A stretch of 23,902 bases of DNA. It comes from a virus. Shown here in pieces: positions 568 through 21,950 of the stretch. Position numbers and translations under genes: made by a program. Each line of letters opens with the position of its first letter. Position 1 is the stretch's first letter. Location of the stretch: IMG/VR virus record IMGVR_UViG_3300031974_000948, positions 1 through 23,902 of that record. One strand, written 5' to 3'. The notes beneath the pieces were generated by a model. The model was not told where the DNA came from. It was given only the letters and a program-made list of their open reading frames with translations, and did no database searches.

Positions 568-689
568 TAGCACATATCCTTTGTTCTACATTGTTCACAG
601 TATCTATAATCTGGACCATAAAAATAGTTACCACATTTAAAATCTGATTTACAAGGTTTTAAAATATCTGTATCTGTGTTATCAATCAT
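567..689 (-). CDS. 40-aa four-cysteine (zinc-finger-like) small protein
   Basis: A short gene of 40 codons plus stop fits exactly between the tape measure and the tail-tip gene, with a TAATG overlap at both ends, which argues that it is translated. The product starts MIDNTDTDILKPC and has cysteines at residues 13, 19, 31, 34 and 40, with a CEQC knuckle at 31-34. A C-x5-C ... C-x2-C arrangement could hold one zinc ion. No family is recognised. It may be a small tail-assembly factor or an unrelated micro-protein. The exact stop/start overlaps are seen directly; metal binding is inferred. Confidence 0.6.
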   Translation of the reverse strand: MIDNTDTDILKPCKSDFKCGNYFYGPDYRYCEQCRTKDMC

Positions 690-3600
690 TATCTACCTAA
701 TACAGAAGAACTATTTCCTTCTTTTTCTAAATTGACTAAAGCTTTTCTAATTGACTGAGCTGCTTTTCTAGCAGATTGAGGATCTGAAGGAACACCTGTT
801 ACATTAACACTTAATTGATTTACAGTAATTCCTCCACCAGAACCACCACCTATTCCTGTAGGTGTTACTCTAACACCAGTAGGACTTGGAGAAATAATTT
901 CTGGTCCAAACTCTCCAACTAATGCTCTCTTTCCTACATTTAAAAATCCGCCTGTATGTAATACTTTATCCAACAGACTACCTTTATCTGAACCGGGTGG
1001 TGTAGTTGAAGGAGGTTGTATGTTTCTTAAATCTGGAAATGGCAGTTCCATACCAAAAGATTCAAAAATCATATTAACTTCACCTTGTACTCTTTTAATA
1101 TTAGCCATAGCTTCTGTAGTATCTATTGTAAGTTTCGCAGCTTCTCTTTCTACAAATATTGAATCAAACATTGTAGCAACTTCATCAAATTGTGATTTAA
1201 AGGTAGGTGCCATTGTATTTGCTGTATCAATTATGCTTTGTATTTGTTGCTCTGGCATACCTGCAGCTGCAGCTATCTTTTGAAATTGTTTTACACCTTC
1301 AGGTCCTGCAGCAATAATTCTATCTGCAAGTTCAAATAATTTGAGTTGAGTATTAAATTGCTCCATCTTAGCATCTGATATACCTTGTTGAGCTGCAACC
1401 TCAGCATCACTTTGACTTTCTATTTGAGATTCTAAATCTGCAATTCTTTCTTCCATTGCTGTTATTTCTGGAGCAATTAATGTAGCTTTCTCTTTTAATT
1501 CGTCAAATAAATCAGTTTGTATGTTTACTTGTTCTGTTAAAATATCTTTTTGTAAGTCGAGCATTTTTTGGAAATTATCTCTACCTTGAAAGCCATCAAT
1601 TCCTTGAGTTGTTCCTGTCATTTCAGCTAGTCTTTCTCTAGCTGCTTGTACTTCATCAGCAGTAGCGACACCTCTTTTCTCAGCTTGTTCTAAAAATTGT
1701 AACTCTCTTTTAGCGTCTTTAATTGCTAATCTTTCTGAAGCAGTATCTTTTTTATTAAGATTTGATTTCATTTGTAAAAGTCTTAATTCTGCTTGATTTA
1801 TTTTTAGTCTTTCAAATCCTGTTACTACTCCTTCAGCGCCAAACTTAGATTGAAGTTTTTCTAAATCTGCTTGTAAATCTACTTGTTCAGCTAAATTTTT
1901 AGTTCCTTCTTGAACCACTTTGTTGTATTCTTCTTGAGCTTTTGTTATAGCTGCTTGACTGTTTTGTATACTTTTAAATGTATTACTAAAATTAGTGAAT
2001 AAATCAAAAGTACTAATTAATCCAGTTTTAAATTCAGCTAAACCTGCTTTATAGCTATCGCTGGAAAATAAACTTTCCATATTTAATCTTCCAGCCATAT
2101 CTTTTTCGATAGATGCAATTTGACTGTTAGCCCATTCCATTAAGTCAGCTTGTTCTGTTATTGTAAAAGTACTTAAATCTTCTGCTGCTTTTTTAGCAGC
2201 GTTTAAAACAGCTACTGTAAATTTACCACCATTCTGTTCCATTCCTAAAGCAAGAGCATCAGCAAACGCTTGACCATAAGGTATAAACCTTCTAGCAGGA
2301 GATTTAATTCCAAATTCTAATATAAGACCTTTTTCACCATTTTCAACAGCAGCAATAATGGCTTGTTTTATTGCATCGCCATTTTCTCTTATTCCTTTAG
2401 AAAGACCATCTACTATGTCTCCACCAAACGGTTCAAACTTATCTCTTAACTCATCTCCACTCATTTCTATTTCGTCAGGAATACCTGCTAATTCTTTTAA
2501 TAAGTCTTCTCTCATAACACGTAAGTTAGATTCAGCTTCTTGAGCTAACTCAGGTGCGTTTAAAAAGTCTTTAGCAGCTGTTAAAGCAGCTGGACCTTCT
2601 TGAGCTAAAGTTGCAGCTAGTGCTTGAAATCCTTGAGCTTGAAGTGCTTGAATTGTAGCAATAAATTCAGCAGAAATAATAGCTTGATCTTGAAGATTTC
2701 TAGTCATCTCACTAGCAGACATCTTTATCTGCTCAGGTATATTGTTGAAAAGACTAACAATACTTCTAGCTGATTTTTGTGCTATTGATTCTATGTTTGC
2801 TGATATAGTCATTTGTTGAGTTATAATATCAAACTCTTTTTGCAATTGATCTGAAGCTAACTGATTACCTTCTTCTGTTAATTTATTCTGAAAAGCTTTT
2901 ATGCTTGCAGAAGTCTCCATATTTCTTATTTCTTCTTCTGAGTAACCTCTGTGTTCTAAAGCAATTCGTCCTCGTTCTCTCTCTTTAGCCAAGAGATTTG
3001 CTCTTTGCCCAATTTGTGTATCAAGAATATTTTTTTCACCTTCGTGTATAAGCATTTGTTCAGCAATTGCTTCAAGCTTTTCTCTTTCATTAAGAGCAAT
3101 TCCTTTACCTAATTCTGATTCTCCATCTGATAAATCTAAAATTCTTTGTTTTAACACTGCAATTCTGACTATTTCAGCTTGAATAGCTTGTTGTCTTTTT
3201 ATTTCATCTTGCTGATAGTGAGTAACCATTTCAAACTCTTCAGCTTGTTTATTAAGTTCTTTTGATTGTGCTTCCAATACTTCTAATAAAGGTATTGCTG
3301 CTGTTCTAGGATCCATACCATCTTGAAAAACACTTCTCATAAATTCTTCAGCTTCAGGTAAAGTACTTCGTAAATCATTTATAGTTGTAAAGAAATCACC
3401 TACAGCACCACCAGCACCAGTAATATTTTCTACAGCTTGTTCAAATACAAATTCAAGGCTGTTTCCTAAGTTTTCTACATTTTCATCTACTGTCTGTATG
3501 TATAATGCAGCGTTTAATATTTTAGATATTTCAGAATCATCTACTTTAATTCCTGCAGCATTCAAACTACTTTTTATGCTTTCTGCGTCTATCTTGTCTG

Positions 3601-5212
3601 AATCTGATAAAAGACTTTCAAAAGCTATTCCTGATATATCTAGAAACTCATCTTTAAGAATTTGAGAAGTATTTTTTAAATCTGCTAGAGATTTGTTAGC
3701 ACCACCGGCAAACTCATCTATATTTTGTAATGTATCTGAAAAAGCTACGGAAGCACCTGATGAAGCTATTTCTTTAAACTCTTTGTTAATTTTAGATAAA
3801 AATGCTAAAAAGGCAACACCTGCAGCTACACCAGCCATAGTTGAAAAAAGATTTCCTGTAACTCCGTTTAATATAGCTGTAGAAACAGCTACACCCTCTA
3901 AAGTTTTTTTCCATCTTAAAAATTCAATTATTAACAGTCCCATCATTGAAACTATTTTTGAACCAAAAAGTATTTTAAATAATGATTTAAATAACTGTAT
4001 AAAGTGATCTAAGCCAAAGTTTGTCTCAATTAAACCTTTTGCAAAACCTTGTAATCCAAATATTAGATTTCTAACCATTGGGAGTAATCCTTCACCAAGC
4101 TGCATAGCTGCTTCTTGAAATTGATTTTTAAGAAGTATTAACTGTTGTTTAGTAGTTGCGAATTTTTTAGCTGCTTCTACGTTTAAAGCTACATTAGCTT
4201 CATAAGCTGACCTAGATGTAACTAAAGCATCTCTTAATAACCCTTGAGCTGTAGCTAAACCATTTACAGCTAGCTGAGTTCTTCTCTGAGATAAATTAAG
4301 TTTTTGTAGTACATTTTGTAGACCGTTTACCCTATCTTCTGCTGTTGATAAACCTTCTATAAAAGTTACTACAGCTAAAGCTGCATCTTCTTGAAAATCT
4401 TTTTGAAATTGTTCTGCACTAGTATTTGAAATTGTAGAAAACAGTTCTAACTGTTCCCCACCTGTTTGTATTGCTCTTTGTATTTCTTGAAACACACGAG
4501 CTATAGCAGTACCACCAGCTTGAGCTGGAACACCAATAGCTTGAAGTGCTGTTGCAAAAGCTAAAGCGTCTTGAGTTGATGCACCTGATTGTTCAGCTGC
4601 TGTTGCAATACGTAAAACTGTTGTAATAATTTCGTCTTCAGTTGCTGCAAAGTTGTTACCTAATTCAACTATAGATGCACCAGTTCTTTCAAAGAAATCA
4701 TCTAATCCTGAATCAGGTATGCTTGCAATAGCTGCTAATCTAGCTAAAGCCAAAGCTGCATTCTCTGTAGATAAAACAGTAGCAACAGATAACTTAGTTA
4801 CAGTTTCTGTAAATGTTTCTATGTTTTGAGCTTCTATACCTAACTGACCACCAAGCTCACCAATTCTTGCAAGTTCTGTAGCAGCAACTGGTAATTCAGT
4901 TGCTAAGTCTCTTATGGATTGACTTAAACGTTGTAAGGTTTCTTCATCAGCATCTACAGTCTTTCTTACACCAGCAAAAGCATCTTCAAATCCCATTAAG
5001 CTAGTTACACCAGCTAGTGCAGCAACACCTACACCTGCAGCTGCAGCAGAAACACCAACAAATGCACCATTAACTACAGCATTAAATCTTCTAAAGTTTT
5101 TTTCAACGCCTTGAAATAAGGCATTAGCTTCGTTCTGAATGTTATCGGTGCCGGCAAGACCAGCCTCGATTACCATACTTATTACAGCATCAGCATTTTG
5201 TCCGGGACCCAT
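689..5212 (-). CDS. tail tape measure protein (TP901 type)
   Basis: This 1507-aa protein is the longest in the window. Tape measure proteins fill the growing tail tube, set its length and are usually ejected with the DNA. Residues about 70-300 carry the TP901-type core (SLMGFEDAFAGVRKTVDADE, then RIGELGGQLGI and Ala-rich helices). A hydrophobic stretch lies near residues 410-475, where such proteins often have membrane-active segments. Long coiled-coil stretches rich in Glu, Gln and Lys follow. Around 965-995 is a GIKSPARRFIPYGQAFADAL motif, and from 1421 the typical C-terminal GGFLNVGKRALVGEFGPE segment. The ATG lies two bases past the stop of the chaperone frame, with purine-rich GAGAGA upstream. 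At roughly 0.15 nm per residue (family rule of thumb) the tail could approach 220 nm. Identification is firm. Confidence 0.95.
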   Translation of the reverse strand: MGPGQNADAVISMVIEAGLAGTDNIQNEANALFQGVEKNFRRFNAVVNGAFVGVSAAAAGVGVAALAGVTSLMGFEDAFAGVRKTVDADEETLQRLSQSIRDLATELPVAATELARIGELGGQLGIEAQNIETFTETVTKLSVATVLSTENAALALARLAAIASIPDSGLDDFFERTGASIVELGNNFAATEDEIITTVLRIATAAEQSGASTQDALAFATALQAIGVPAQAGGTAIARVFQEIQRAIQTGGEQLELFSTISNTSAEQFQKDFQEDAALAVVTFIEGLSTAEDRVNGLQNVLQKLNLSQRRTQLAVNGLATAQGLLRDALVTSRSAYEANVALNVEAAKKFATTKQQLILLKNQFQEAAMQLGEGLLPMVRNLIFGLQGFAKGLIETNFGLDHFIQLFKSLFKILFGSKIVSMMGLLIIEFLRWKKTLEGVAVSTAILNGVTGNLFSTMAGVAAGVAFLAFLSKINKEFKEIASSGASVAFSDTLQNIDEFAGGANKSLADLKNTSQILKDEFLDISGIAFESLLSDSDKIDAESIKSSLNAAGIKVDDSEISKILNAALYIQTVDENVENLGNSLEFVFEQAVENITGAGGAVGDFFTTINDLRSTLPEAEEFMRSVFQDGMDPRTAAIPLLEVLEAQSKELNKQAEEFEMVTHYQQDEIKRQQAIQAEIVRIAVLKQRILDLSDGESELGKGIALNEREKLEAIAEQMLIHEGEKNILDTQIGQRANLLAKERERGRIALEHRGYSEEEIRNMETSASIKAFQNKLTEEGNQLASDQLQKEFDIITQQMTISANIESIAQKSARSIVSLFNNIPEQIKMSASEMTRNLQDQAIISAEFIATIQALQAQGFQALAATLAQEGPAALTAAKDFLNAPELAQEAESNLRVMREDLLKELAGIPDEIEMSGDELRDKFEPFGGDIVDGLSKGIRENGDAIKQAIIAAVENGEKGLILEFGIKSPARRFIPYGQAFADALALGMEQNGGKFTVAVLNAAKKAAEDLSTFTITEQADLMEWANSQIASIEKDMAGRLNMESLFSSDSYKAGLAEFKTGLISTFDLFTNFSNTFKSIQNSQAAITKAQEEYNKVVQEGTKNLAEQVDLQADLEKLQSKFGAEGVVTGFERLKINQAELRLLQMKSNLNKKDTASERLAIKDAKRELQFLEQAEKRGVATADEVQAARERLAEMTGTTQGIDGFQGRDNFQKMLDLQKDILTEQVNIQTDLFDELKEKATLIAPEITAMEERIADLESQIESQSDAEVAAQQGISDAKMEQFNTQLKLFELADRIIAAGPEGVKQFQKIAAAAGMPEQQIQSIIDTANTMAPTFKSQFDEVATMFDSIFVEREAAKLTIDTTEAMANIKRVQGEVNMIFESFGMELPFPDLRNIQPPSTTPPGSDKGSLLDKVLHTGGFLNVGKRALVGEFGPEIISPSPTGVRVTPTGIGGGSGGGITVNQLSVNVTGVPSDPQSARKAAQSIRKALVNLEKEGNSSSVLGR

Positions 5213-5215
5213 TAA

Positions 5216-5521
5216 CTATCTCTCTCTTGTTTGATTAATAAATTCATCCATTGAAACTTGTTGTCTCTCTTTGTTAGTCCTGCCTTTAAATTTATCCCTT
5301 TGCTGTTTGTACCAGCTTCTAGGGTTCTTTTGCTTTTGTTCTTCACTGATATACTCTTCTCCAGATCTAACAGCATTTACTAGTGGTAAAAAGAACGCAG
5401 AATCTTCAAAAGGTAGATTTGTAAGAAGTCTTACAAATTTTTTCCAACCTATTAAAAGGGCATCTTCAATTTGATAGTGTCTTAGAAAATCTGATTCTAT
5501 AGCACTCCATCTTTCTATCAT
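5216..5521 (-). CDS. tail assembly chaperone, downstream frame (T part, made by -1 frameshift)
   Basis: This frame encodes the C-terminal half of a lambda GT-like tail chaperone, which holds the tape measure while tube subunits assemble. The nominal ATG at 5521 gives 101 aa beginning MIERWSAIESDFLRHYQIED, but no Shine-Dalgarno sequence precedes it and it lies in the loop of a predicted stem. The frame is open upstream to about 5557, and a -1 slip at CCCAAAC (5548-5542) enters it at 5542. The fusion would be 120 residues of the upstream protein plus 108 residues of this frame, 228 aa in all. The segment IGWKKFVRLLTNLPFEDSAFF resembles C-terminal chaperone domains of actinophages and other siphophages. 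Independent translation from the ATG is possible but less likely. Confidence 0.85.
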   Translation of the reverse strand: MIERWSAIESDFLRHYQIEDALLIGWKKFVRLLTNLPFEDSAFFLPLVNAVRSGEEYISEEQKQKNPRSWYKQQRDKFKGRTNKERQQVSMDEFINQTRER

Positions 5522-5548
5522 TTCTGATGGAGAGTATGTTAGTTTGGG
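5505..5548 (-). promoter_or_regulatory. programmed -1 ribosomal frameshift signal
   Basis: In the upstream chaperone frame the codons read AGC CCA AAC TAA, giving a canonical X XXY YYZ slippery heptamer C CCA AAC (5548-5542) right before the stop. A slip by one base re-reads 5542 and enters the downstream frame as CTA ACA TAC. Nine bases after the heptamer a perfect 7-bp stem forms, CTCCATC (5532-5526) with GATGGAG (5511-5505), around a 14-nt loop; 5-9 nt is the usual spacing for a stimulatory structure. The signal sits between the major tail protein and the tape measure, exactly where lambda-like phages place it. Confidence 0.9.
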
Positions 5549-5901
5549 CTTTCTTCGTCACTTTCATCTATTGGACCTGCGTTTAACTGTTCACCTTGAG
5601 CGGTTATACCGTACTCTTCCAATAAAAAAGCCAAAAGTTTTTGTAACTTCTCCCAAGATGCTCCATTTTCAAGCATCTCGTCTAAGTTCTTTTGACCGAC
5701 TATTGTAGCAAGCCATTCTGGAATTTGCGCTGCAATTAACTGACCAGTGTCATCCATAAATCGCAGTTGACTCAATACTACCCTTGCAGGCAGTTCAGGA
5801 GGGAACTCATAGTTCTTTCCCGCTATTTTGACTTTAATCGATTCTTTGTCAGACTCTTCGATTGCAGCGTCAAAATCCATAAATCTACTCTTCTCACTCA
5901 T
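5539..5901 (-). CDS. tail assembly chaperone, upstream frame (G-like)
   Basis: This 120-aa acidic protein is the abundant short form of the tail chaperone pair. It contains KIAGKNYEFPPELPARVVL near residues 26-44, a pattern common to such chaperones in Gram-positive siphophages, followed by a helical region and an acidic C-terminus (DESDEESPN). The ATG has a good Shine-Dalgarno sequence (TAGGAGAAGTAT). The reading frame ends at a TAA directly after the slippery heptamer, so a minority of ribosomes should continue into the next frame to make the fusion form. The position between major tail protein and tape measure supports the role. Assignment combines position, size, sequence style and the frameshift signal. 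Confidence 0.85.
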   Translation of the reverse strand: MSEKSRFMDFDAAIEESDKESIKVKIAGKNYEFPPELPARVVLSQLRFMDDTGQLIAAQIPEWLATIVGQKNLDEMLENGASWEKLQKLLAFLLEEYGITAQGEQLNAGPIDESDEESPN

Positions 5902-5920: not shown

Positions 5921-6625
5921 TTACGGATTACTTGATCCACCTGCTCCGGCAGCGTTGGTGTTATCAACGATGTCGAATAGGTAGCTGTAACCGCTACTAT
6001 CTGAACCAACATTTAATGTTGAGTCAGGTACTAATATCTTGAACTCTGTTGCTAAAACAACTTTTTGTGGAGCTTTTGCGTGTTGCATAGAGAAAGACCC
6101 TACGCTTACAGCACGTGGAATCCTAACGTGTCGTGTTGCGACACCATTAGTTCCAGTTGGTCCATCAACAACTAATAACAAGGCATACTCGTTAAAAGCT
6201 GAAGATGTTGGAGGTACTAAGGTGTTGTAACCTGTAGCACTTGTTCCAGCAGCACCAGATGCACCGCTTCCGATTACATCGGAAGTTGATGATCCTCCAC
6301 CAAGGGCTATAACCAACTTTGCGTGTGATGCTTGTGAAAGCTCACCTGTTAGTCTAACTTCTTGGGAAGTTTTAATTGTTTTAATTGGATCTACTTCTTC
6401 AGCCACCATAATGTCTTCAAAAGTTTTATCCATTTCAAGAGTCCAACCATCTTCTGAGTAGCCTACTTCTTCCCAAGCAACAGTCATTGCTGTTGGGCTT
6501 TCAAAGGCTCCTGCTGTCCCAGAATCATCTCCCGGAAAAGCTAAAGAGGTTGTTGTTCTGTCCTTAAGATAAAGGACACCAGTACCTATCAATACTTCAG
6601 ATATTGAACCGCTTGTAGCTGGCAT
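5921..6625 (-). CDS. major tail (tube) protein
   Basis: This 234-aa protein is predicted to be the subunit that polymerises into the tail tube. It opens MPATSGSISEVLIGTGVLYL, has an EEVGYSEDGWTLEMDKTFEDI segment at about 51-71 like siphophage tube proteins, and is rich in Gly, Ser, Thr and Val with a Gly/Ala-rich loop at 110-130. It lies directly before the chaperone pair and tape measure, the standard place. Codon choice is less AT-biased than in neighbouring genes, consistent with a highly expressed structural protein. A strong ribosome site (GTAGGAGA) and a palindromic leader precede the ATG. The call rests mainly on position and style. Confidence 0.85.
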   Translation of the reverse strand: MPATSGSISEVLIGTGVLYLKDRTTTSLAFPGDDSGTAGAFESPTAMTVAWEEVGYSEDGWTLEMDKTFEDIMVAEEVDPIKTIKTSQEVRLTGELSQASHAKLVIALGGGSSTSDVIGSGASGAAGTSATGYNTLVPPTSSAFNEYALLLVVDGPTGTNGVATRHVRIPRAVSVGSFSMQHAKAPQKVVLATEFKILVPDSTLNVGSDSSGYSYLFDIVDNTNAAGAGGSSNP

Positions 6626-7474: not shown

Positions 7475-10400
7475 CTATAAATCTTCAAATCTAATTATAT
7501 ACCCTTTACCCTTTTTGTACCCACCAACTCTATAACCTTGAAAATCTCTTTCTCTGTGTCTATATCTAATTCCATCTTCTTTAGCTTTTAATGCTGCTGT
7601 AAGTATTGCTATATCACTTAAAACACGCATTCCTGATTGTGGTTGCATTGCTAATGCTCTATTTAAGTCTGATGGATTAGCATTCATTAATATAGCTGCA
7701 TTGTCTGCAAACTGAGGACTTGTATTTGAAGCACCTGTTAATCCATATCTTCTTTGTTTTTTAGGAGCTATGTTGTCATTTATTCTAGCCATTCTTAGTT
7801 TTCCTTCGCCTTCATCAACAAACATAACACCAGTTCCTGTTTTTCTAGTTACATTTCTTACTTCTCCACCAGATTTTGTTGTAAGGCTTATTCCATTTTT
7901 TTGTATCTTTCCACTTTTTGTATTAACTTTTAGTGCCATCATCTCTGTAGGAAGAGCAGGATCGTTAAATTCAAATAAAACAGAGTTTTTACCATATTGA
8001 GTATTGCTTGCATAGATTCTTCTTCTAGTGTCTGTTCTACGATCTCTTGTTTGATTTACTCCACGTAGTCTAGGTTGTCTAACTTCTATATAATACCCAC
8101 CTGCTTTTTGTCTAAAGTTTAATTGTTGTGATTCATCAACTTTAAAACTTAACCTAACTAAACCACTGTCTGTACTTCTTGCAGATTGTCTATTCTTATT
8201 GCCTTGATTAGAAACTGCTTTTAATTTTCCAGATACAGCACTAACAGAAACATCTTTATCTACTGTTAAGCTATCAAAGTACCCCTTGTTTTTACCTTTC
8301 TCTAGCAATGCTTGATTAATTAATTTTTGTTGTAATCCACCACTAGTTCCCCTTCCACCAAAATACTGACCTCTTACTCTTCCTGTTTGAGCTTCTATAA
8401 TGTCTTGAACTTGTAAAAGTTGATCAGCTAAAGTACCTTTAGCTGCTGCTCCAGAACCTACAAACTGTCCACCAGCACTTCTTCCTAGAAATAAATTTTT
8501 AACATCGTCTATGTCAACAGCACCTTTATTTTTTGTAGTGTTTACAAGCCTGCCATTTTTTACTGTTATAAAATCTTCTGAATAGAATTTTTTACCAAAA
8601 AGCCTGTTGGTCTTTATATCAATTTGTCTTCTAGCTTCTTCTATTTTTATACTTATATCTAACTGTCTTTTACTTAAACTTCCTGCTGTATCACCTTGTT
8701 TTTGTAATCCAGCAAGTATTGTTTTATAATTAGATTTAGTAACAATATCGTCACCAACAAATATTGGATTTTCTCTAAATAATTGTTTTTCTCTTTCAAC
8801 TCCAAATTTATCTATATACTTTTCTACACCGGTAACATCTCTACTAACTAACATTCCTGAACTAGAGAATGATTTATCTCTAGCTAATCGTTCTATTAAG
8901 TTTGCTTGTGCTGCGGTAGCACCGCCTCCTCCACCGCCAGACAGACCACCAGCTTTAAACTGTTTGTTATATCTCCTTATATCTTTATCAAGTTTCAATA
9001 TTTCGCTTTGTAATGTTCTTGCAGTATTTGTCATATCTTCTAAATCTTTTGCAAAGCTAGAAGTTATAACAGGGTTTCCTTTTGAATCAACTTTATATGT
9101 AATATTATTTGAAATATTGTATTGACTAGTTGCAATATTGCCACCTTTGGTCGTTACCCATTTACCTTTAGAATCGTCCCAAACTCGCATATCTTTTAAA
9201 GTTATATCTCTCTCTACTTGACCCCTAAGTTGTTTATTAACTTCTGCAAGCTCTCTTTGTGTTAATCTAATTCCATCTTTTTTAAGTTGAGGTAACATAT
9301 TTTGTATTTGTTTATCTGAAAGATCTGAATAACCTTTTGCTCTTGCTGCGGTATACGTTCCACCAAGACTATACATTTGTCTTTCACCATATTCTATATC
9401 CATAATCCTTTCAAATCTTTTAAGGTCTAGAACTACTGCATTAGTTACTTTATTTCCTTTAAATTTAAAATCTATAACTCCTTCAGCTCTAGCATATTTC
9501 AATTGCTCTCTAGTCTCTTTAGTCATTTTTATCATTCCTAAATCTAATATATTATGTTCAGCAATTTTTACTTCAGCAGTATCTAGTACTGAAGATTTGT
9601 ATCTGTTACCTTTTCCAGCTATATACCTAGCTCTACCTTTATCAGAAGCTTTTAACATTCTCATATCTGCAACAATAGGTATTTGACCTGTGTCTAAAGA
9701 AACTCCGACATCATATTCTTTTGATCTAGTTCTTTTGTACTCTGAAACTTCTTCAGTTTTATACTTACCTCTAGGTCTGTAATTCTTACCTCTACGTTTA
9801 GAGTCTTTAGTCTTTTGAGGTGGTTTACGTTTGTAACCTTTTACTTTATGAGTTTCTTTTACTAAAGACTTACGACCTCCATATAAAAATTCCATACTGG
9901 CTTTTGCTCCTGCTTCTAAAGCTTCGTCATATGTACTTTCAGGTAGTCCATAGTATCCACCCATTTGTCTACCTTTATCACCTCTGTAAGTCATATCTGC
10001 AGTCTTTTTTCTTCTTCCGTCATATTTATTACCAGCTTTAATATTTTTTTGTTCAGTTCTACTTAACTTCCAACCAAATTTTGCAGACTTATCTTTAGTA
10101 AAACTCCAATTTAAAGCATTTTCTGTAGCAAATTCATCTTCAATAAAATTATCACCAACTGTTCTACCTTTAATGACTCTACCTTTACTATCTCTTTTAA
10201 CTCTTTCTGGTCTAAACTCTTGTTCTGCTTTAACACGTTCACCATCTTTAGAAAGCCAAACTTTATACATAGCTTTAGCTCTTTGACTTTCATTAATTTG
10301 TAAAATTGATTTAGTTGCTAAACTTCCTAATCCGTGAGGGTCTACTATTTCAGCAATTTTCTTTATTGCAGGAGCGTATAATTTTGCTGTAAACCTAAGA

Positions 10401-11191
10401 GCTTTTTGAGCAAAGAAACTAGGAGGATAGACTTTATCATTCTCTCCAGTCGTTGGATCAAAAAGTATACCACCATAGTTAGCAATCCATACATACGGTG
10501 CTTTATCGGCAACCATAACTCCGGGTGCAGAAGAACCAGCTGTAACTGTATATCTAGCAATAGTTTTACTATCTGGATTAAACTCTGGTTGTAACATTTG
10601 TACAGAACCAGCTAAGTTGTTTGGTGAAAATTGAATAGGATTTGTAGAACCTTTGAGTTGCATTGTAAAGCTTTCTCTAGGAGCTGTAGCTTGCATACCT
10701 AAAGCTAAACTTTTTTGCATCATTAGAAATACATTTCCTGAAGCATTTACATTAAAAAGCTTTTGATATTTATTTGTTGTTTTTCTTCCGAATATCCTCA
10801 TTGAAGGTTTTTTTTTGATACCGTGTATTTTTCTGTTCATCATACCTCCGATTCTTGCTCTTACTAATCTAAGAGCAATGTTGTTTGCTGGAGGTAATAT
10901 TAAGTTTGTAGCTAAACCAGCAGCTCTACCAAATGCACGATTAATTACACGTTTTTTTACATTTCTATTCATAACAGCATTAACGTCACGAGCTAGTCTG
11001 TTATATTTTAGAATTTCATTTCTAGCAGATCTTATACCGCCTGCATTTTTAGGAGCTAAAGCAATTACAAAACCTGATCTGCTAGATATATTTCTTGCAA
11101 TAGAAGATATTTTATTTGTTAAAGACCAATTGCCTTTTGTACCTTTTACTCTATGGTCGTTTTCGTTTTTAGTCCTGTATCCGAACACCAA
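7475..11191 (-). CDS. giant neck protein: HK97 gp10-like domain with a ~950-aa basic extension
   Basis: This 1238-aa protein sits where HK97-type phages encode a gp10-like neck protein of roughly 100-150 aa. Residues about 150-285 look like that domain: KSLALGMQATAPRESF, NNLAGSVQ, APYVWIANYGG and YPPSFFAQKALRFTAKLY follow the order of the family (helix, AP-R, L-SI, Y-W-E-G, PP-F--A). Residues 1-140 are very basic with an Ala/Leu-rich helix. The extension from 290 to 1238 is Lys/Arg-rich, has a clustered basic tract at 449-478, helical stretches at 712-746 and 835-865, and a SGGGGGG hinge at 751-757. The start is TTG with GGGAG eight bases upstream, itself overlapping the stop of the adaptor gene. 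No catalytic motif is recognised in the extension. An ejected or DNA-contacting virion protein is conceivable. Confidence 0.75.
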   Translation of the reverse strand: MVFGYRTKNENDHRVKGTKGNWSLTNKISSIARNISSRSGFVIALAPKNAGGIRSARNEILKYNRLARDVNAVMNRNVKKRVINRAFGRAAGLATNLILPPANNIALRLVRARIGGMMNRKIHGIKKKPSMRIFGRKTTNKYQKLFNVNASGNVFLMMQKSLALGMQATAPRESFTMQLKGSTNPIQFSPNNLAGSVQMLQPEFNPDSKTIARYTVTAGSSAPGVMVADKAPYVWIANYGGILFDPTTGENDKVYPPSFFAQKALRFTAKLYAPAIKKIAEIVDPHGLGSLATKSILQINESQRAKAMYKVWLSKDGERVKAEQEFRPERVKRDSKGRVIKGRTVGDNFIEDEFATENALNWSFTKDKSAKFGWKLSRTEQKNIKAGNKYDGRRKKTADMTYRGDKGRQMGGYYGLPESTYDEALEAGAKASMEFLYGGRKSLVKETHKVKGYKRKPPQKTKDSKRRGKNYRPRGKYKTEEVSEYKRTRSKEYDVGVSLDTGQIPIVADMRMLKASDKGRARYIAGKGNRYKSSVLDTAEVKIAEHNILDLGMIKMTKETREQLKYARAEGVIDFKFKGNKVTNAVVLDLKRFERIMDIEYGERQMYSLGGTYTAARAKGYSDLSDKQIQNMLPQLKKDGIRLTQRELAEVNKQLRGQVERDITLKDMRVWDDSKGKWVTTKGGNIATSQYNISNNITYKVDSKGNPVITSSFAKDLEDMTNTARTLQSEILKLDKDIRRYNKQFKAGGLSGGGGGGATAAQANLIERLARDKSFSSSGMLVSRDVTGVEKYIDKFGVEREKQLFRENPIFVGDDIVTKSNYKTILAGLQKQGDTAGSLSKRQLDISIKIEEARRQIDIKTNRLFGKKFYSEDFITVKNGRLVNTTKNKGAVDIDDVKNLFLGRSAGGQFVGSGAAAKGTLADQLLQVQDIIEAQTGRVRGQYFGGRGTSGGLQQKLINQALLEKGKNKGYFDSLTVDKDVSVSAVSGKLKAVSNQGNKNRQSARSTDSGLVRLSFKVDESQQLNFRQKAGGYYIEVRQPRLRGVNQTRDRRTDTRRRIYASNTQYGKNSVLFEFNDPALPTEMMALKVNTKSGKIQKNGISLTTKSGGEVRNVTRKTGTGVMFVDEGEGKLRMARINDNIAPKKQRRYGLTGASNTSPQFADNAAILMNANPSDLNRALAMQPQSGMRVLSDIAILTAALKAKEDGIRYRHRERDFQGYRVGGYKKGKGYIIRFEDL

Positions 11192-15264: not shown

Positions 15265-15278
15265 TACTTATACTTCAA
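15265..15278 (-). repeat. 14-bp motif shared with the tail-protein leader
   Basis: TTGAAGTATAAGTA on the minus strand, identical to 6645-6658. Here it overlaps the last codons and stop of the protease gene and lies 23 nt before the GTG of the capsid gene, with the same GTAGGAGA ribosome site in between. It may be a late promoter or an expression enhancer for the two main structural proteins. Confidence 0.4.
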
Positions 15279-16440
15279 GATCTACAGTCTCGGCTATAAG
15301 CCTTTGACCTTCAATCCATTCAGCGTCAAAATCTTCGTCAGTTGATTCGCTGTTATCCTCTGGTTCTTCGGATACTTCAGAAACAGGAGTTTCTTCAGTC
15401 TCTTCTTCCTCAGAATCGATGTCAGAGACATCTTCGTCATATTCGTTGACTACACCGTTATTCTCATCAACGTCTACATCGCCAGTTGGTTGCTCTTCTA
15501 CTTCTGACTCTGAAACTTCTTCATCACCGAACTCATCGACAAATGAGTCTAATTCTGCCCAAGCATCGCTAAGATCGTCCTGAACCGCGCGAAGAGCTTC
15601 AGTAGCTTTTACGCCTAATTTTCTACCGTCTTTTTCACGGAGGGACGAAATTGCTTTCGCCCTTGTAATAAGGTTTTCTAATGCAGCAAGCACATCTTTG
15701 ACCTCTTCGGAAAAAGTCTTATTGACCTTTTCTGAAACTTCTAATTCTTTTTGTTCTTCAGCATCTTCTGCTGGAGCTTCCTCTGCAGGAGCTTCTTCTG
15801 CAGGAGCTTCCTCTGCTGGAGCTTCCTCTGCAGGAGCTTCTTCAACTACTTCTTCTTCAGAAACTTCTTCAACAGGTTCCTCTTCAGGATCTGGTTGATT
15901 CATACTTTCTGTAGTCATAACAGCTTTTTCACCTGAAAGTTCTTCTAATAACTCAGTATTAGATTTAATAGCCATTGTGTATGTTTCTTGATTAGCACCA
16001 ACAAGTACTGGTGATACTTCGTAGACAGTTAGACCTTTAAGAAATCTAACATCTTCTTCTTCCTCAGAACCGTCTTTTTTAAACTTACCGTATTCAGAAT
16101 CATCAACTTTAAAACCGAAAGACCATTGTTGTAATTCACCCATAGCCTTTACTAAGTTGTAAGCTTCTCTTCCTGATTCTGTATCCATAAAGAACTGACC
16201 TTTGAATGTCGCTTTATTATCGTCTTGTTCTATTTGACCTTTACCAATTGGCATATCCCATTTGTGAGCCCATACCATAGGCACATCTCCTGATTTAAAA
16301 CCTGATTTAATAGAGCCTGCTTTTACAATGTCGCCATCTGAATCTATTTTATCGAATACCGAAAAAACCGCAGCGACTTCACCTTTTTCGTCATTCTTTA
16401 TTTCTAAGTCGATTGACTTGATATCAAAATTTTCTGACAC
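15268..16440 (-). CDS. prohead protease fused to an acidic scaffold-like domain
   Basis: Residues 1-165 are an HK97-family (U35-type) prohead protease that trims the capsid precursor: FSVFDKIDSDGDIVKAGSI, VPMVWAHKWDMPIGKG with the likely catalytic His59, QQWSFGFKV with the likely catalytic Ser107, and LTVYEVSPVLVGANQET. Residues 166-390 form an acidic extension. It has five EEAPA repeats at about 200-225, a predicted helix at 240-303 (EEVKDVLAALENLITRAK) and long Glu/Asp/Ser stretches to the end. No separate scaffold gene is seen, so the extension may serve as scaffold together with the delta-like N-terminus of the capsid protein. The start is GTG with TAGGAG six bases upstream. At 390 aa it is about twice the usual protease length. 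Confidence 0.9.
   Translation of the reverse strand: MSENFDIKSIDLEIKNDEKGEVAAVFSVFDKIDSDGDIVKAGSIKSGFKSGDVPMVWAHKWDMPIGKGQIEQDDNKATFKGQFFMDTESGREAYNLVKAMGELQQWSFGFKVDDSEYGKFKKDGSEEEEDVRFLKGLTVYEVSPVLVGANQETYTMAIKSNTELLEELSGEKAVMTTESMNQPDPEEEPVEEVSEEEVVEEAPAEEAPAEEAPAEEAPAEEAPAEDAEEQKELEVSEKVNKTFSEEVKDVLAALENLITRAKAISSLREKDGRKLGVKATEALRAVQDDLSDAWAELDSFVDEFGDEEVSESEVEEQPTGDVDVDENNGVVNEYDEDVSDIDSEEEETEETPVSEVSEEPEDNSESTDEDFDAEWIEGQRLIAETVDLEV
15770..15844 (-). repeat. five tandem 15-bp repeats coding for EEAPA
   Basis: Five in-frame 15-bp units (plus-strand form GCWGGAGCTTCYTCT) encode the EEAPA repeats of the protease extension. Units differ only at a few positions, mostly silent. This is a slippage-prone coding microsatellite. 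Copy number could vary between related phages. Confidence 0.9.
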
Positions 16441-16525: not shown

Positions 16526-19387
16526 TTATTTAGTGATGTCAGATATGATTCTTAGACTTGAAATAGGCATTGTTACTCTTCTGTCTGTTCTCTTATGTGA
16601 ACCGTCTTCCAAGATTTGCCAAACTTGCATAGTAGCTTCTTTATCTGTGTTATTTACAGAGACAACTACACCGTGAACTGTTGATGGTGGTTGTGGACTT
16701 TTATCTATGCTCCAAGATACGGATTGACCTGTTCTAACAGACTCTGCTTTAAGACCAGATTCAATTGCAGCTGTTAATACTGCATCTGAACTTTTACTAG
16801 AGTTAGGATGTCCTGATGGAAGTAAGTCTGTATCGTATGGTTTTCTTTTGAATTTACCATTTCTTAATGCGTACAAAAAGCCGTTAACTCTGGCTAACGC
16901 CCACTGGTCAGCACCTGAAACATTACCCCTAACTGAACCCGGATTTGTTCTATAAGCACCAACTCCTCTGTTAAATACTTTACCTAAAGTACCTGCAGAA
17001 GTTTTGTATTTAGCACTGCTTGCGTTATGATCAGAAGCTTTCTGTCTTAAAATTTTTCTTATTCTAGGAGAGATAGCTTTCATTACCATTTCTGCTTCTA
17101 GTTCAGCAGCTTTTTTTCTACGTTCTCTAACAAGTTTTTTTCTTTCATTAATAACAGCTTTCATAGCTGGAACACCTATGTTAAGAACTCCACCCCATTT
17201 GATAGCAGCAATGACACCGTTTAATCTTTTATCATTTTGATGTCTTCCCATATAACGTTCTCTTCTTCTTACCCAGTTAAGAACAGATTCACTTCTATCT
17301 CCTGATTGATATGCAGACCATCTCCTAAAAGCATCATTGCCTGTGAATGAAGTTGGAGGATTACCGCCATTGCCAGCCATTCTCCAGATTTCTCCCCAGT
17401 TCTCTTTTAGATCTTTTGCGTAACCATATGGAAATTGTTTATATTTTGAATTTGAAATTCTTACTGCTTGATTCATACCCGGACTTGGAAAGTTAGTATC
17501 GTCTTTTGCTTTGACAATTAATTTATTGTAATCTTCTTCACTTGAACAAGGCATATAAAATTTACCAGCAGGTCCTCTGTCTACTTCGTGATAACCATCG
17601 CATCCTAATTCTTTCGCTCTAGCTATAGCTTCTTCAGGAGTAGTGAAAGTATTTCTCATTAAAGCTGCTGGAGCTTTTTCTTCTGGACTGTGCAAGTCGT
17701 CACCTCTCTCGTACATTGCTTCTGCTTCTTCTAATGATACTTTAAGTTCCTCAACCATTTTGTCTATATAAGATTTTTTTGTACCTTCATAAGATTCGTG
17801 AGAAGCACAAGGCATATAATAAGTTATACCTTCTATTTCGTGTGGATGAGAACCTTCACAACCTATTTGTTTTGCTCTCTCTTCAGCAGCTTCTCTACTT
17901 ACAAACATATCCATACCTCTTGTAGGTGTTACAGATATAGCTTGTCTTGTGGATTCAGGGTTAGCGTCTCCTGTGTCCATAACATCTTTCTTTTCTAATT
18001 CTTCTTGACTAACAAATGTTTGATCAATTGTTGCAGCAGGTATTTCTAATGGATCATCTTCACCCACTGGTATTGATTCATCTTCTGCATCTTCTTGAGC
18101 AGGTTTACCAGTTGCTTCAACTTGTTGCATATTAAGTGGTCTTAAATAAACATTATGAGAATCATCAGCAGCTAAACCAACTGCATTTCTAGCTTCACCA
18201 ATTGTTGCCCAACCACCTGAAACAGCAGTGTTCATTCTTTTATAAAGTTCATCTTGGTCTTGAGATAATGCTCTTACGCTTTCAACTTCATATTTGCAAT
18301 AAATATTATCATTATCATCAAATTCAGGTAGTAGCTGATAAGTTAATTCTTCTGCAACTGTTCTCCATAGGGGAACAAGTTTTTGTTCAGTAAAATATTC
18401 TCTTAATTCTCTAGTATTACTATAAGTAGCTGAACTAAGACCAGCACCTAAACCAGCAAGTACAGCAGGAACTCCCATAACAGCTGAAACTCTTTCTTCT
18501 GGTAGTCTTCTAAGTTCTATCAAGTTCATATCTTGAGGACTAAAAGAAACAACATCTATGTTCATTGAACCAGTAAGAACCATTGGCATACCTCTATTAG
18601 CTCCACCAAATTTTGATTTATACATTTCAGATATAGCTTCTGCTTCTTCTCTTGTTGGTCCACCCATAGCATCAGATGAAGGAGAAAGTATAACTCCGGG
18701 TATTGCCATATTGTGTAACAAAGCAGTTGAGTATTGACCTGCTGCTTCATCTCCTAATATTTCTCGTAAAACTGTTTTTATTGGTGCGTAACCTCTTCTA
18801 TGATCATTTGGGTCTACACCTGTTCTAATATGAATTATATCTTTAGGGTCAATGTCAACTGTGTCTGTAGTTGGTGTGTACTCATACCTTGTAATTAATC
18901 TTTCTGTATCACCTTTTGGTTTAACAAAAGCAGGCATAAGAGGAACTAGTTGTACAACTTGTCCTTTATTATTTCTATTCTTAAAAAGATAAGCATCTCC
19001 CTCCACACTTATGGAAGAAACTAAATAGTGTGAAAGTATTGCACCGGACATAAAAGGATTTGGTCTTTTAAATAGTTTTGATACAGGATGTTTAGCAAGT
19101 ACAATATCTTGACCTACTTCATCTTCCTTCATAACATTTAGTTTTGGTTCAGCAAAAGCTGTAGCCAAAACAGAAAGACAAGCGGCAACTGCGGAGTTAC
19201 CAGAACCGTTGCCAATATCTTCTAATTTGTCAGAAGGAAAGTATCCTGATTGTGTGTTATATCCGTATACAGATCTATCTAGCGCTGATGCTAGTGATTG
19301 ATTAAAATTTAATCTTTTTAACTCGCTTCGTCCTGATGGAGTTAATCGTTTCGTAAATCTTTGAAACGCATTTAATTCGTTAGCCAT
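16526..19387 (-). CDS. portal protein with a ~530-aa multi-domain C-terminal extension
   Basis: Residues 1 to about 420 form an HK97-type portal: VAACLSVLATAFAEPKLNV, HPVSKLFKRPNPFMSG, GDAYLFKNRN, DIIHIRTGVDPNDHRRGYAP and ELRRLPEERVSAVMGVPAVL. The portal ring is the DNA entry and exit channel. After a linker there are two Cys/His modules, GCEGSHPHEIEGITYYMPC (509-527) and GCDGYHEVDRGPAGKFYMPC (595-614). Next is a Trp-rich domain (652-748: FPYGYAKDLKENWGEIWRMAG, RRRERYMGRH, GVIAAIKWGGV), then a helical domain (773-842, RGVGAYRTNPGS, DQWALARVNGFLYALR) and a beta-rich C-terminal domain (885-953) resembling small SH3-like phage domains. I recall similar pieces in marine phage head proteins, function unknown. 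The ATG has TAGGAGATAA upstream. Confidence 0.92.
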   Translation of the reverse strand: MANELNAFQRFTKRLTPSGRSELKRLNFNQSLASALDRSVYGYNTQSGYFPSDKLEDIGNGSGNSAVAACLSVLATAFAEPKLNVMKEDEVGQDIVLAKHPVSKLFKRPNPFMSGAILSHYLVSSISVEGDAYLFKNRNNKGQVVQLVPLMPAFVKPKGDTERLITRYEYTPTTDTVDIDPKDIIHIRTGVDPNDHRRGYAPIKTVLREILGDEAAGQYSTALLHNMAIPGVILSPSSDAMGGPTREEAEAISEMYKSKFGGANRGMPMVLTGSMNIDVVSFSPQDMNLIELRRLPEERVSAVMGVPAVLAGLGAGLSSATYSNTRELREYFTEQKLVPLWRTVAEELTYQLLPEFDDNDNIYCKYEVESVRALSQDQDELYKRMNTAVSGGWATIGEARNAVGLAADDSHNVYLRPLNMQQVEATGKPAQEDAEDESIPVGEDDPLEIPAATIDQTFVSQEELEKKDVMDTGDANPESTRQAISVTPTRGMDMFVSREAAEERAKQIGCEGSHPHEIEGITYYMPCASHESYEGTKKSYIDKMVEELKVSLEEAEAMYERGDDLHSPEEKAPAALMRNTFTTPEEAIARAKELGCDGYHEVDRGPAGKFYMPCSSEEDYNKLIVKAKDDTNFPSPGMNQAVRISNSKYKQFPYGYAKDLKENWGEIWRMAGNGGNPPTSFTGNDAFRRWSAYQSGDRSESVLNWVRRRERYMGRHQNDKRLNGVIAAIKWGGVLNIGVPAMKAVINERKKLVRERRKKAAELEAEMVMKAISPRIRKILRQKASDHNASSAKYKTSAGTLGKVFNRGVGAYRTNPGSVRGNVSGADQWALARVNGFLYALRNGKFKRKPYDTDLLPSGHPNSSKSSDAVLTAAIESGLKAESVRTGQSVSWSIDKSPQPPSTVHGVVVSVNNTDKEATMQVWQILEDGSHKRTDRRVTMPISSLRIISDITK

Positions 19388-20823: not shown

Positions 20824-21064
20824 ATTTATACTTTATTTTCTTGGCTTCGTTGTATTGTTGAAAAGATTTAGGGCTTAAATCACTAGGATCTCCGTCCCAT
20901 TCTACATCTACAGGTGTTTCAAACATAACATTTTTAGAAACTTGTCTTTTTGTAGGACTTTCACAAAGTATACACTTAATGACTGGATCTTCAGTTATCT
21001 TATGAGTTATCTCGAACATTTGTTCGCATTTACTACTTAGGCATTTATAATCATATCTAGGCAA
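20819..21064 (-). CDS. FmdB-type zinc ribbon protein
   Basis: This 81-aa protein begins MPRYDYKC, the signature start of FmdB-type regulators, with C8 and C13 and a second pair CILC (31-34) that would bind zinc. The rest is short and acidic, ending in an aromatic/basic tail (KKIKYKW). FmdB-like proteins are frequent near phage terminase genes, but their role there is not established; regulation or a structural part are both possible. The start overlaps the end of the glycosyltransferase gene by 8 bases, indicating coupled translation. Its stop lies in the tandem 11-mers. Confidence 0.85.
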   Translation of the reverse strand: MPRYDYKCLSSKCEQMFEITHKITEDPVIKCILCESPTKRQVSKNVMFETPVDVEWDGDPSDLSPKSFQQYNEAKKIKYKW

Positions 21065-21950
21065 GTTTTACTCCTGTGTATGTTTCTAATAATTTTACTC
21101 TATCTATATGGTTTAATTTGTAATCTTTCCAAATAGTTACATAATCTAATTGTTGATGTTTAATCAATTCATAAGGTTGTAAGTAATCAGTGTAGTTCCA
21201 TCTGCTCTGTCCGTTGTGTGTATGCAATATGGTTCTATTTTCATAAAGGTGAGCAATAGTTGGTTGATCGAATAAAGGAGTTAATAATGTATATTCCTTA
21301 CTAAGTAATTCTGCTGTTTGTATCCAATGTTCTGTATGCATTGGTAAATCTGATAAATCATTAAAAAAATTACTTTTACTAAAAGCAAAGTTACCATTCC
21401 AAAGTAGGCACTTCATTACACCTTTTTCGTCATATTCGTGTATGTCGATATATTCAGGATACATTGTGTAATATTCGTTACTTCCGTACTTATACATTTT
21501 ACCTGTAAATTTAGGGTATGCTAATTTTGATTGGTGTGGTGCAAAAGATCTATTTTCTCCATCTGAATAAAAATGACCTGCAAGACCAGTAAATATAACA
21601 TTAGTACTAAATCTTTCTATAGCTTCTTTTAGTAAAGTATCCCAATGCTTACCAAACAAACTATGCGAATCAATCGACATAACATAATCTTCTCCTTGGT
21701 ACATAGATCCAGCTTTTATTCTTCCTTTACCTATTCCTAAGTTTTGCCAACTAAGTTCATCAGTAAATAAAGACATATTGTGTTCTAAAGAAAAATCGTA
21801 TATCCTTTTTTCCCAAAATTCATTTTCACATAATGCATAAACACCAAAGTGTATATCACTAGGATTATCAGCTTGTTCTAAACAGTTTTCTATTGTATTA
21901 AAAAACTCTTGATCGTGTATTACTGGAATACCAATATAAATACTACTCAT
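21057..21950 (-). CDS. glycosyltransferase, GlcNAc-transferase-like (GT-A type)
   Basis: This 297-aa protein starts SSIYIGIPVIHDQEFFNTI, the opening strand of a GT-A fold, and has GIGKGRIKAGSMYQGEDYVMSIDSH (72-96). This matches the G-ARH...LY-GE-YYLQIDSH pattern of the UDP-GlcNAc transferases related to the Skp1 enzyme; DSH (94-96) is the likely metal/nucleotide-sugar site. KHWDTLL follows as expected. Similar enzymes in phages may decorate virion proteins, DNA or host surface; which applies here cannot be told. The ATG lies inside the end of the preceding 44-aa gene (8-base overlap) and the stop overlaps the FmdB-like gene, so it is coupled at both ends. Placement just before the packaging genes suggests late expression and a virion target. 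Confidence 0.8.
   Translation of the reverse strand: MSSIYIGIPVIHDQEFFNTIENCLEQADNPSDIHFGVYALCENEFWEKRIYDFSLEHNMSLFTDELSWQNLGIGKGRIKAGSMYQGEDYVMSIDSHSLFGKHWDTLLKEAIERFSTNVIFTGLAGHFYSDGENRSFAPHQSKLAYPKFTGKMYKYGSNEYYTMYPEYIDIHEYDEKGVMKCLLWNGNFAFSKSNFFNDLSDLPMHTEHWIQTAELLSKEYTLLTPLFDQPTIAHLYENRTILHTHNGQSRWNYTDYLQPYELIKHQQLDYVTIWKDYKLNHIDRVKLLETYTGVKLA

Follow-up and report, generated by a model that had tools for sequence, protein, structure and literature searches.

Probable programmed −1 ribosomal frameshifting in the tail assembly chaperone region of an uncultured siphovirus-like marine phage

A slippery heptamer at the junction of two tail chaperone frames

In a siphovirus-like marine phage, sequence comparison indicates that programmed −1 ribosomal frameshifting very probably joins the two frames that encode the tail assembly chaperones. 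The slip site, its phase and its conservation, the many relatives that have no other start for the second frame and the covariation of a downstream stem are all seen directly in the sequences analysed, and the conserved heptamer and the often-conserved stem are the points of interest. The signal is well supported as a new example of the known lambda-type recoding event, with no new mechanism involved.

The stretch of DNA analysed, called the window here, is a linear IMG/VR virus record of 23,902 bases with a G+C content of 35%, whose minus strand carries the structural genes for terminase, portal, capsid, prohead protease, tail protein and tape measure. Two minus-strand ORFs, of 120 aa (5901-5539) and 101 aa (5521-5216), lie between the probable major tail protein gene directly upstream (5921-6625; PHROG 2175, an Ig-domain protein, E 3.6e-12; PHROG 476, major tail protein, E 4.1e-5) and the tape measure gene directly downstream (689-5212; PHROG 13339, E 2.9e-77), all on the same strand. 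The second ORF is in the −1 frame, as in the layout of the lambda G-GT type.

The 120-aa ORF ends in AGC CCA AAC TAA, in which the heptamer CCCAAAC (5548-5542, minus strand) is in slip phase (C CCA AAC) relative to ATG 5901 and is directly followed by the zero-frame stop TAA (5541-5539); the overlap thus holds an in-phase XXXYYYZ slippery site of the lambda G-GT type. The last upstream stop of the −1 frame is the TGA at 5560-5558, which leaves that frame open from 5557. From the slip site, the −1 frame (5542-5216, minus strand) would encode an extension domain of 7 + 101 aa before its stop, with the role of lambda T, and the predicted fusion is of 120 + 7 + 101 = 228 aa, reading SPN-LTYSPSE over the junction. 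An earlier note on this DNA had read the phase of the heptamer, the adjoining TAA, a −1 frame open from about 5557 and a 228-aa fusion from the letters alone, and all four were borne out, the last as a prediction.

When the 21 genes of the window were scanned, 42 in-phase XXXYYYZ heptamers (Y = A or T) were counted in 7100 codons, a frequency from which the chance of finding one in the short overlap is about 2.3%. CCCAAAC was in phase nowhere else among these genes. In the window sequence alone the heptamer is suggestive; its origin by chance is untenable because it is conserved in relatives. Among the 21, just one other gene (23128-22877, minus strand) has such a heptamer in phase no more than 15 nt from its stop, AAAAAAA 3 nt before it, likely by chance in A-rich sequence.

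Conservation of the heptamer in relatives

When the 120-aa protein was used as a query against IMG/VR, six loci were found with 74-79% best-segment identity, and all six had CCCAAAA or CCCAAAC followed by TAA. A profile of chaperone 1 (the 120-aa protein and its homologues) retrieved 26 loci, 20 of them new, and the heptamer was present in every new locus, abutting TAA in 17 and lying one codon before TAG in three. A wider chaperone-1 profile found 97 loci, of which 80 were kept; CCCAAA[A/C] was in phase in all 80, abutting the stop in 68 and one codon away in 12. In the set obtained with an extension-domain profile, 62 of 64 loci had CCCAAA[A/C] and two had other heptamers. Relatives lacking the heptamer, which the earlier note had named as grounds for rejecting its reading, were thus absent from the first chaperone-1 sets (26/26) and from the wider one (80/80).

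These sets overlap; pooling them gives 168 locus entries, among them the window, which reduce to 64 distinct sequences, 60 with CCCAAAA and four with CCCAAAC. As the pooled set was assembled from loci having CCCAAA[A/C], the claim of conservation rests on the counts within each set and on the codon that precedes the heptamer. This codon encodes any of six amino acids (S, D, N, T, A or P) and its third base is always C in the 64 distinct sequences, a count uncorrected for kinship; the background of C at upstream third positions was 12.6% in an earlier set of 25 distinct sequences.

In 54 of the 64 distinct sequences the heptamer runs directly into the zero-frame stop. On the 5' side, a stop of the −1 frame touches the heptamer in 16 of the 64 and lies 3 nt away in 17 more. 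Where it touches, the shift must fall on the heptamer, and where the zero-frame stop also touches the 3' side, the heptamer alone is left as the shift site.

More distant relatives were reached among 57 matches to the extension domain, which comprised the six nearest contigs again, 15 loci with CCCAAAA and 36 more distant loci. One of the latter, L065, was left out as it is cut by the contig end; the remaining 35 had other in-phase heptamers or, in L071, CCCAAAC. L087, L088 and L091 have a long overlap with an uninformative slip site, and many A-run sites of the distant loci could be due to chance in A-rich sequence. At the junction of some of these distant loci the A runs are long, and there slippage of RNA polymerase would be possible. 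Transcriptional slippage is generally known to need long homopolymer runs. At the slip site of the window the A run is no longer than three, and it is extremely improbable that this process, in place of ribosomal frameshifting, joins the two frames.

Searches of other collections gave no match in Rfam, no relative among genome contigs and no DNA match among phage records, where one weak protein match (MT836061) was obtained and neither the extension domain nor chaperone 1 of relative L053 had any match.

The internal ATG of the second frame

The 101-aa ORF begins with an ATG (5521-5519, minus strand) that lies in the loop of the downstream stem. Pairing of the region upstream of this ATG with the anti-Shine-Dalgarno sequence was calculated at +1.6 kcal/mol, compared with −4.1 to −7.7 kcal/mol for seven other genes, in agreement with the earlier claim that this start has no ribosome site and is placed in the stem loop.

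The second ORF might be translated independently from this ATG, by coupled re-initiation after the TAA, since an in-frame ATG stands 17 nt past the stop in the window and relatives L004 and L005 have one at the same codon. However, apart from the missing Shine-Dalgarno sequence and the position of the ATG within the stem loop, a scan for ATG, GTG and TTG showed that relatives do not retain this codon: of 44 distinct ones, 23 had none of the three within codons 1-30 of the second frame, and L003 has its earliest at codon 95. Moreover, the seven residues that precede ATG 5521 align with those of relatives. Independent translation is therefore very unlikely, and the possibility that the 101-aa protein is made exclusively from its own ATG, which would have spoken against the earlier reading, is contradicted by the relatives that have no such start.

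The two proteins

The zero-frame product matches PHROG 6959, 'tail assembly chaperone' (E 4.9e-7), as do 17 of the 26 aligned chaperone-1 members. Its predicted model (pLDDT 72) had tail assembly chaperones as its best BFVD matches (best E 2.2e-4), whereas among solved structures the matches were weak, with two VIA-align rows at Z about 4 and no convincing homologue. As in the lambda G-GT type, the first ORF can therefore be assigned as a tail assembly chaperone, with the putative role of lambda gpG.

The extension domain of the window had no match in Pfam, NCBIfam or PHROG, and one of its seven aligned relatives had a weak match to a PHROG of unknown function. When its profile was compared by hhalign with the −1 domain of chaperones annotated in Streptomyces phages, an E of 2.1e-9 over 42 columns was obtained, and the chaperone-1 profile matched chaperone 1 of the same phages with an E of 7.6e-13. 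The second domain is thus homologous to the −1 domain of known chaperones, as in the lambda G-GT type. Fold comparison of the extension model gave fused chaperones as weak matches (best E 0.065), and both models matched, weakly, a single 220-aa chaperone of phage Darolandstone.

A stem downstream of the heptamer

Nine nucleotides past the heptamer, the arms CTCCATC (5532-5526) and GATGGAG (5511-5505, both minus strand) can form a 7-bp stem with a 14-nt loop. The earlier note had described a perfect 7-bp stem nine bases downstream; its arms and spacer were confirmed, but folds of 80-100 nt retained only five or six of the seven pairs, because a neighbouring hairpin competes. According to PMC4066793, stimulatory stems start 4-10 nt past the motif and have an unfolding energy of at least 7.6 kcal/mol, and the window stem falls within these limits (offset 9, −8.0 kcal/mol). 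With offsets of 4-12 nt allowed, 34 of the 64 distinct sequences reach −7.6 kcal/mol.

The comparison of relatives that had been proposed as a check on the stem revealed covariation in two clades. In the clade of the window, a 9-pair helix has 96.3% of its cells paired, and one pair varies among G-C, A-U, U-A and U-G; in the window itself, the two outer pairs of this helix are absent or broken. In a second clade the register is shifted by one, 98.6% of cells are paired and two pairs are changed on both sides. RNAalifold recovered both helices unaided. The covariation score was reached by 2 of 500 shuffles in the first clade (six distinct rows) and by 28 of 500 in the second (eight distinct rows), kinship not being removed in either.

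When the stem was ranked against other local positions in 24 of the 25 distinct sequences (L034 being too short), it was among the best 5% in 21 of the 24, the window standing at 3.9%. Against a null that keeps the extension protein and resamples its codons, p<0.05 was reached in 19 of 24 and then in 37 of 64 distinct sequences, with p 0.024 and 0.032 for the window.

It could still be that the frameshift is real and the stem no stimulator of it, being incidental to codon choice or serving to hide the internal ATG. In 27 of the 64 distinct sequences p<0.05 was not reached, and some have no stem at all; the 3' arm covers conserved Trp codons; and certain tailed-phage shifts seem to lack stimulators, as stated in the review PMC5009743. 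However, the 37 sequences above beat a null in which the extension protein is itself preserved, covariation occurs in two clades with different pairing registers, and many stems are found in relatives that have no ATG to hide. A stem without stimulatory effect is thus rather unlikely, and on these comparisons the stem appears to be a common and selected accessory, not a universal part of the signal, which probably raises the rate of slippage.

Among the distant extension-domain relatives the stems are mixed overall. Five of these loci (L058, L062, L064, L072 and L089) have AAAAAAC or GGGAAAC with strong stems 5-6 nt later (−11.7 to −26.3 kcal/mol), which suggests that a strong stem is repeatedly combined with heptamers of other sequence.

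In the window, no SD-like sequence that could act as an upstream stimulator precedes the motif at a distance of 6-17 nt. Such an element is present in 21 of the 25 distinct sequences, a proportion not clearly above the protein-preserving null (p 0.07).

Proposed course of the frameshift and comparison with known systems

We infer from these features that slippage occurs, and the course, the rate and the roles of both products proposed here follow the same reasoning. Most ribosomes would translate C CCA AAC in the zero frame and terminate at the adjoining TAA, yielding the 120-aa chaperone. A minority would slip back one base, their tRNAs moving from CCA and AAC to CCC and AAA, and would thereby bypass the stop and yield the 228-aa fusion. 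This tandem slippage is the most likely course. Most relatives have AAA as the second codon, and re-pairing of its tRNA would be fully cognate, whereas the window has AAC; according to PMC4066793, AAC is a poorer ending in the A_AAA and G_GGA series in E. coli, which may not be the host. By analogy with lambda gpG and gpGT, the short form would act as a coat on the tape measure protein, with the extension recruiting the major tail protein, and the fusion is expected, as a lambda-type trait, to be made at a low fixed ratio and to be needed for tail assembly.

The stop next to the heptamer would also permit another timing, in which slippage takes place with the stop codon already in the A site. 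Because heptamer and zero-frame stop are kept adjacent (54/64 distinct), often with a −1-frame stop on the other flank and a covarying stem, one could suppose that competition between release factor and slippage at this point sets the ratio of short to fused chaperone. This proposal is improbable; if true, tail assembly would be sensitive to termination efficiency and not to the heptamer alone.

Frameshifting of the lambda G-GT tail chaperones is a known mechanism (Xu/Hendrix/Duda, as summarised in PMC5009743), and the earlier proposal that the site works as in lambda-like tails is supported. Both systems have overlapping frames between the major tail protein and tape measure genes and an XXXYYYZ heptamer close to where the first frame ends, with a −1 fusion and the shorter form expected in excess. 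In contrast, the lambda heptamer is GGGAAAG and not CCCAAAC, and in the window the zero-frame stop abuts the heptamer and a clade-conserved stem follows. The likeness to lambda G and T drawn here is one of gene order and signal.

The Streptomyces phages ToastyFinz, Austintatious, Raleigh and Picard share both domains, by profile, and the gene order, and their pair is annotated by the authors of the records as a joined CDS. The stretch common to both frames holds GGGAAAA in phase. The first base of that heptamer, however, lies 76-88 nt before the zero-frame stop and does not abut it. With the E. coli dnaX type (general features in PMC5009743 and PMC4066793), the window and its relatives share a heptamer with a downstream stem at similar spacing and, in many relatives, an SD-like element; the window has no such element, and its product would be an extension, whereas that of dnaX is a truncation.

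In literature searches judged by title, no CCCAAAC paper concerned phage frameshifting, the sole CCCAAAA paper among the matches listed was on another subject, and queries for tail-chaperone frameshifts with a stem-loop, hairpin or pseudoknot gave reviews, PRFect and unrelated papers.

For this uncultured marine phage group, the right annotation would thus be one 228-aa fusion plus a 120-aa protein and not two genes, with a second chaperone domain that Pfam and NCBIfam miss. The 64 natural variants of one frameshift site, with and without a stem, can be compared side by side, and could help to find out which elements other than the heptamer a tail chaperone requires.

Other genes of the window

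Four further genes of the minus strand were noted. A 1238-aa ORF (7475-11191) between the head-tail connector and tail genes matched nothing in Pfam or PHROG and nothing meaningful in NCBIfam. The 953-aa portal ORF (16526-19387) has, outside its portal domain, two DUF3721 stretches and a sub-threshold match to DUF5824, and the translation of the prohead protease ORF (15268-16440) contains a repeated Glu-Ala-Pro-Ala stretch. A glycosyltransferase gene (21057-21950; Pfam GlcNAc, E 1.2e-10; PHROG 24687) lies near the terminase gene.
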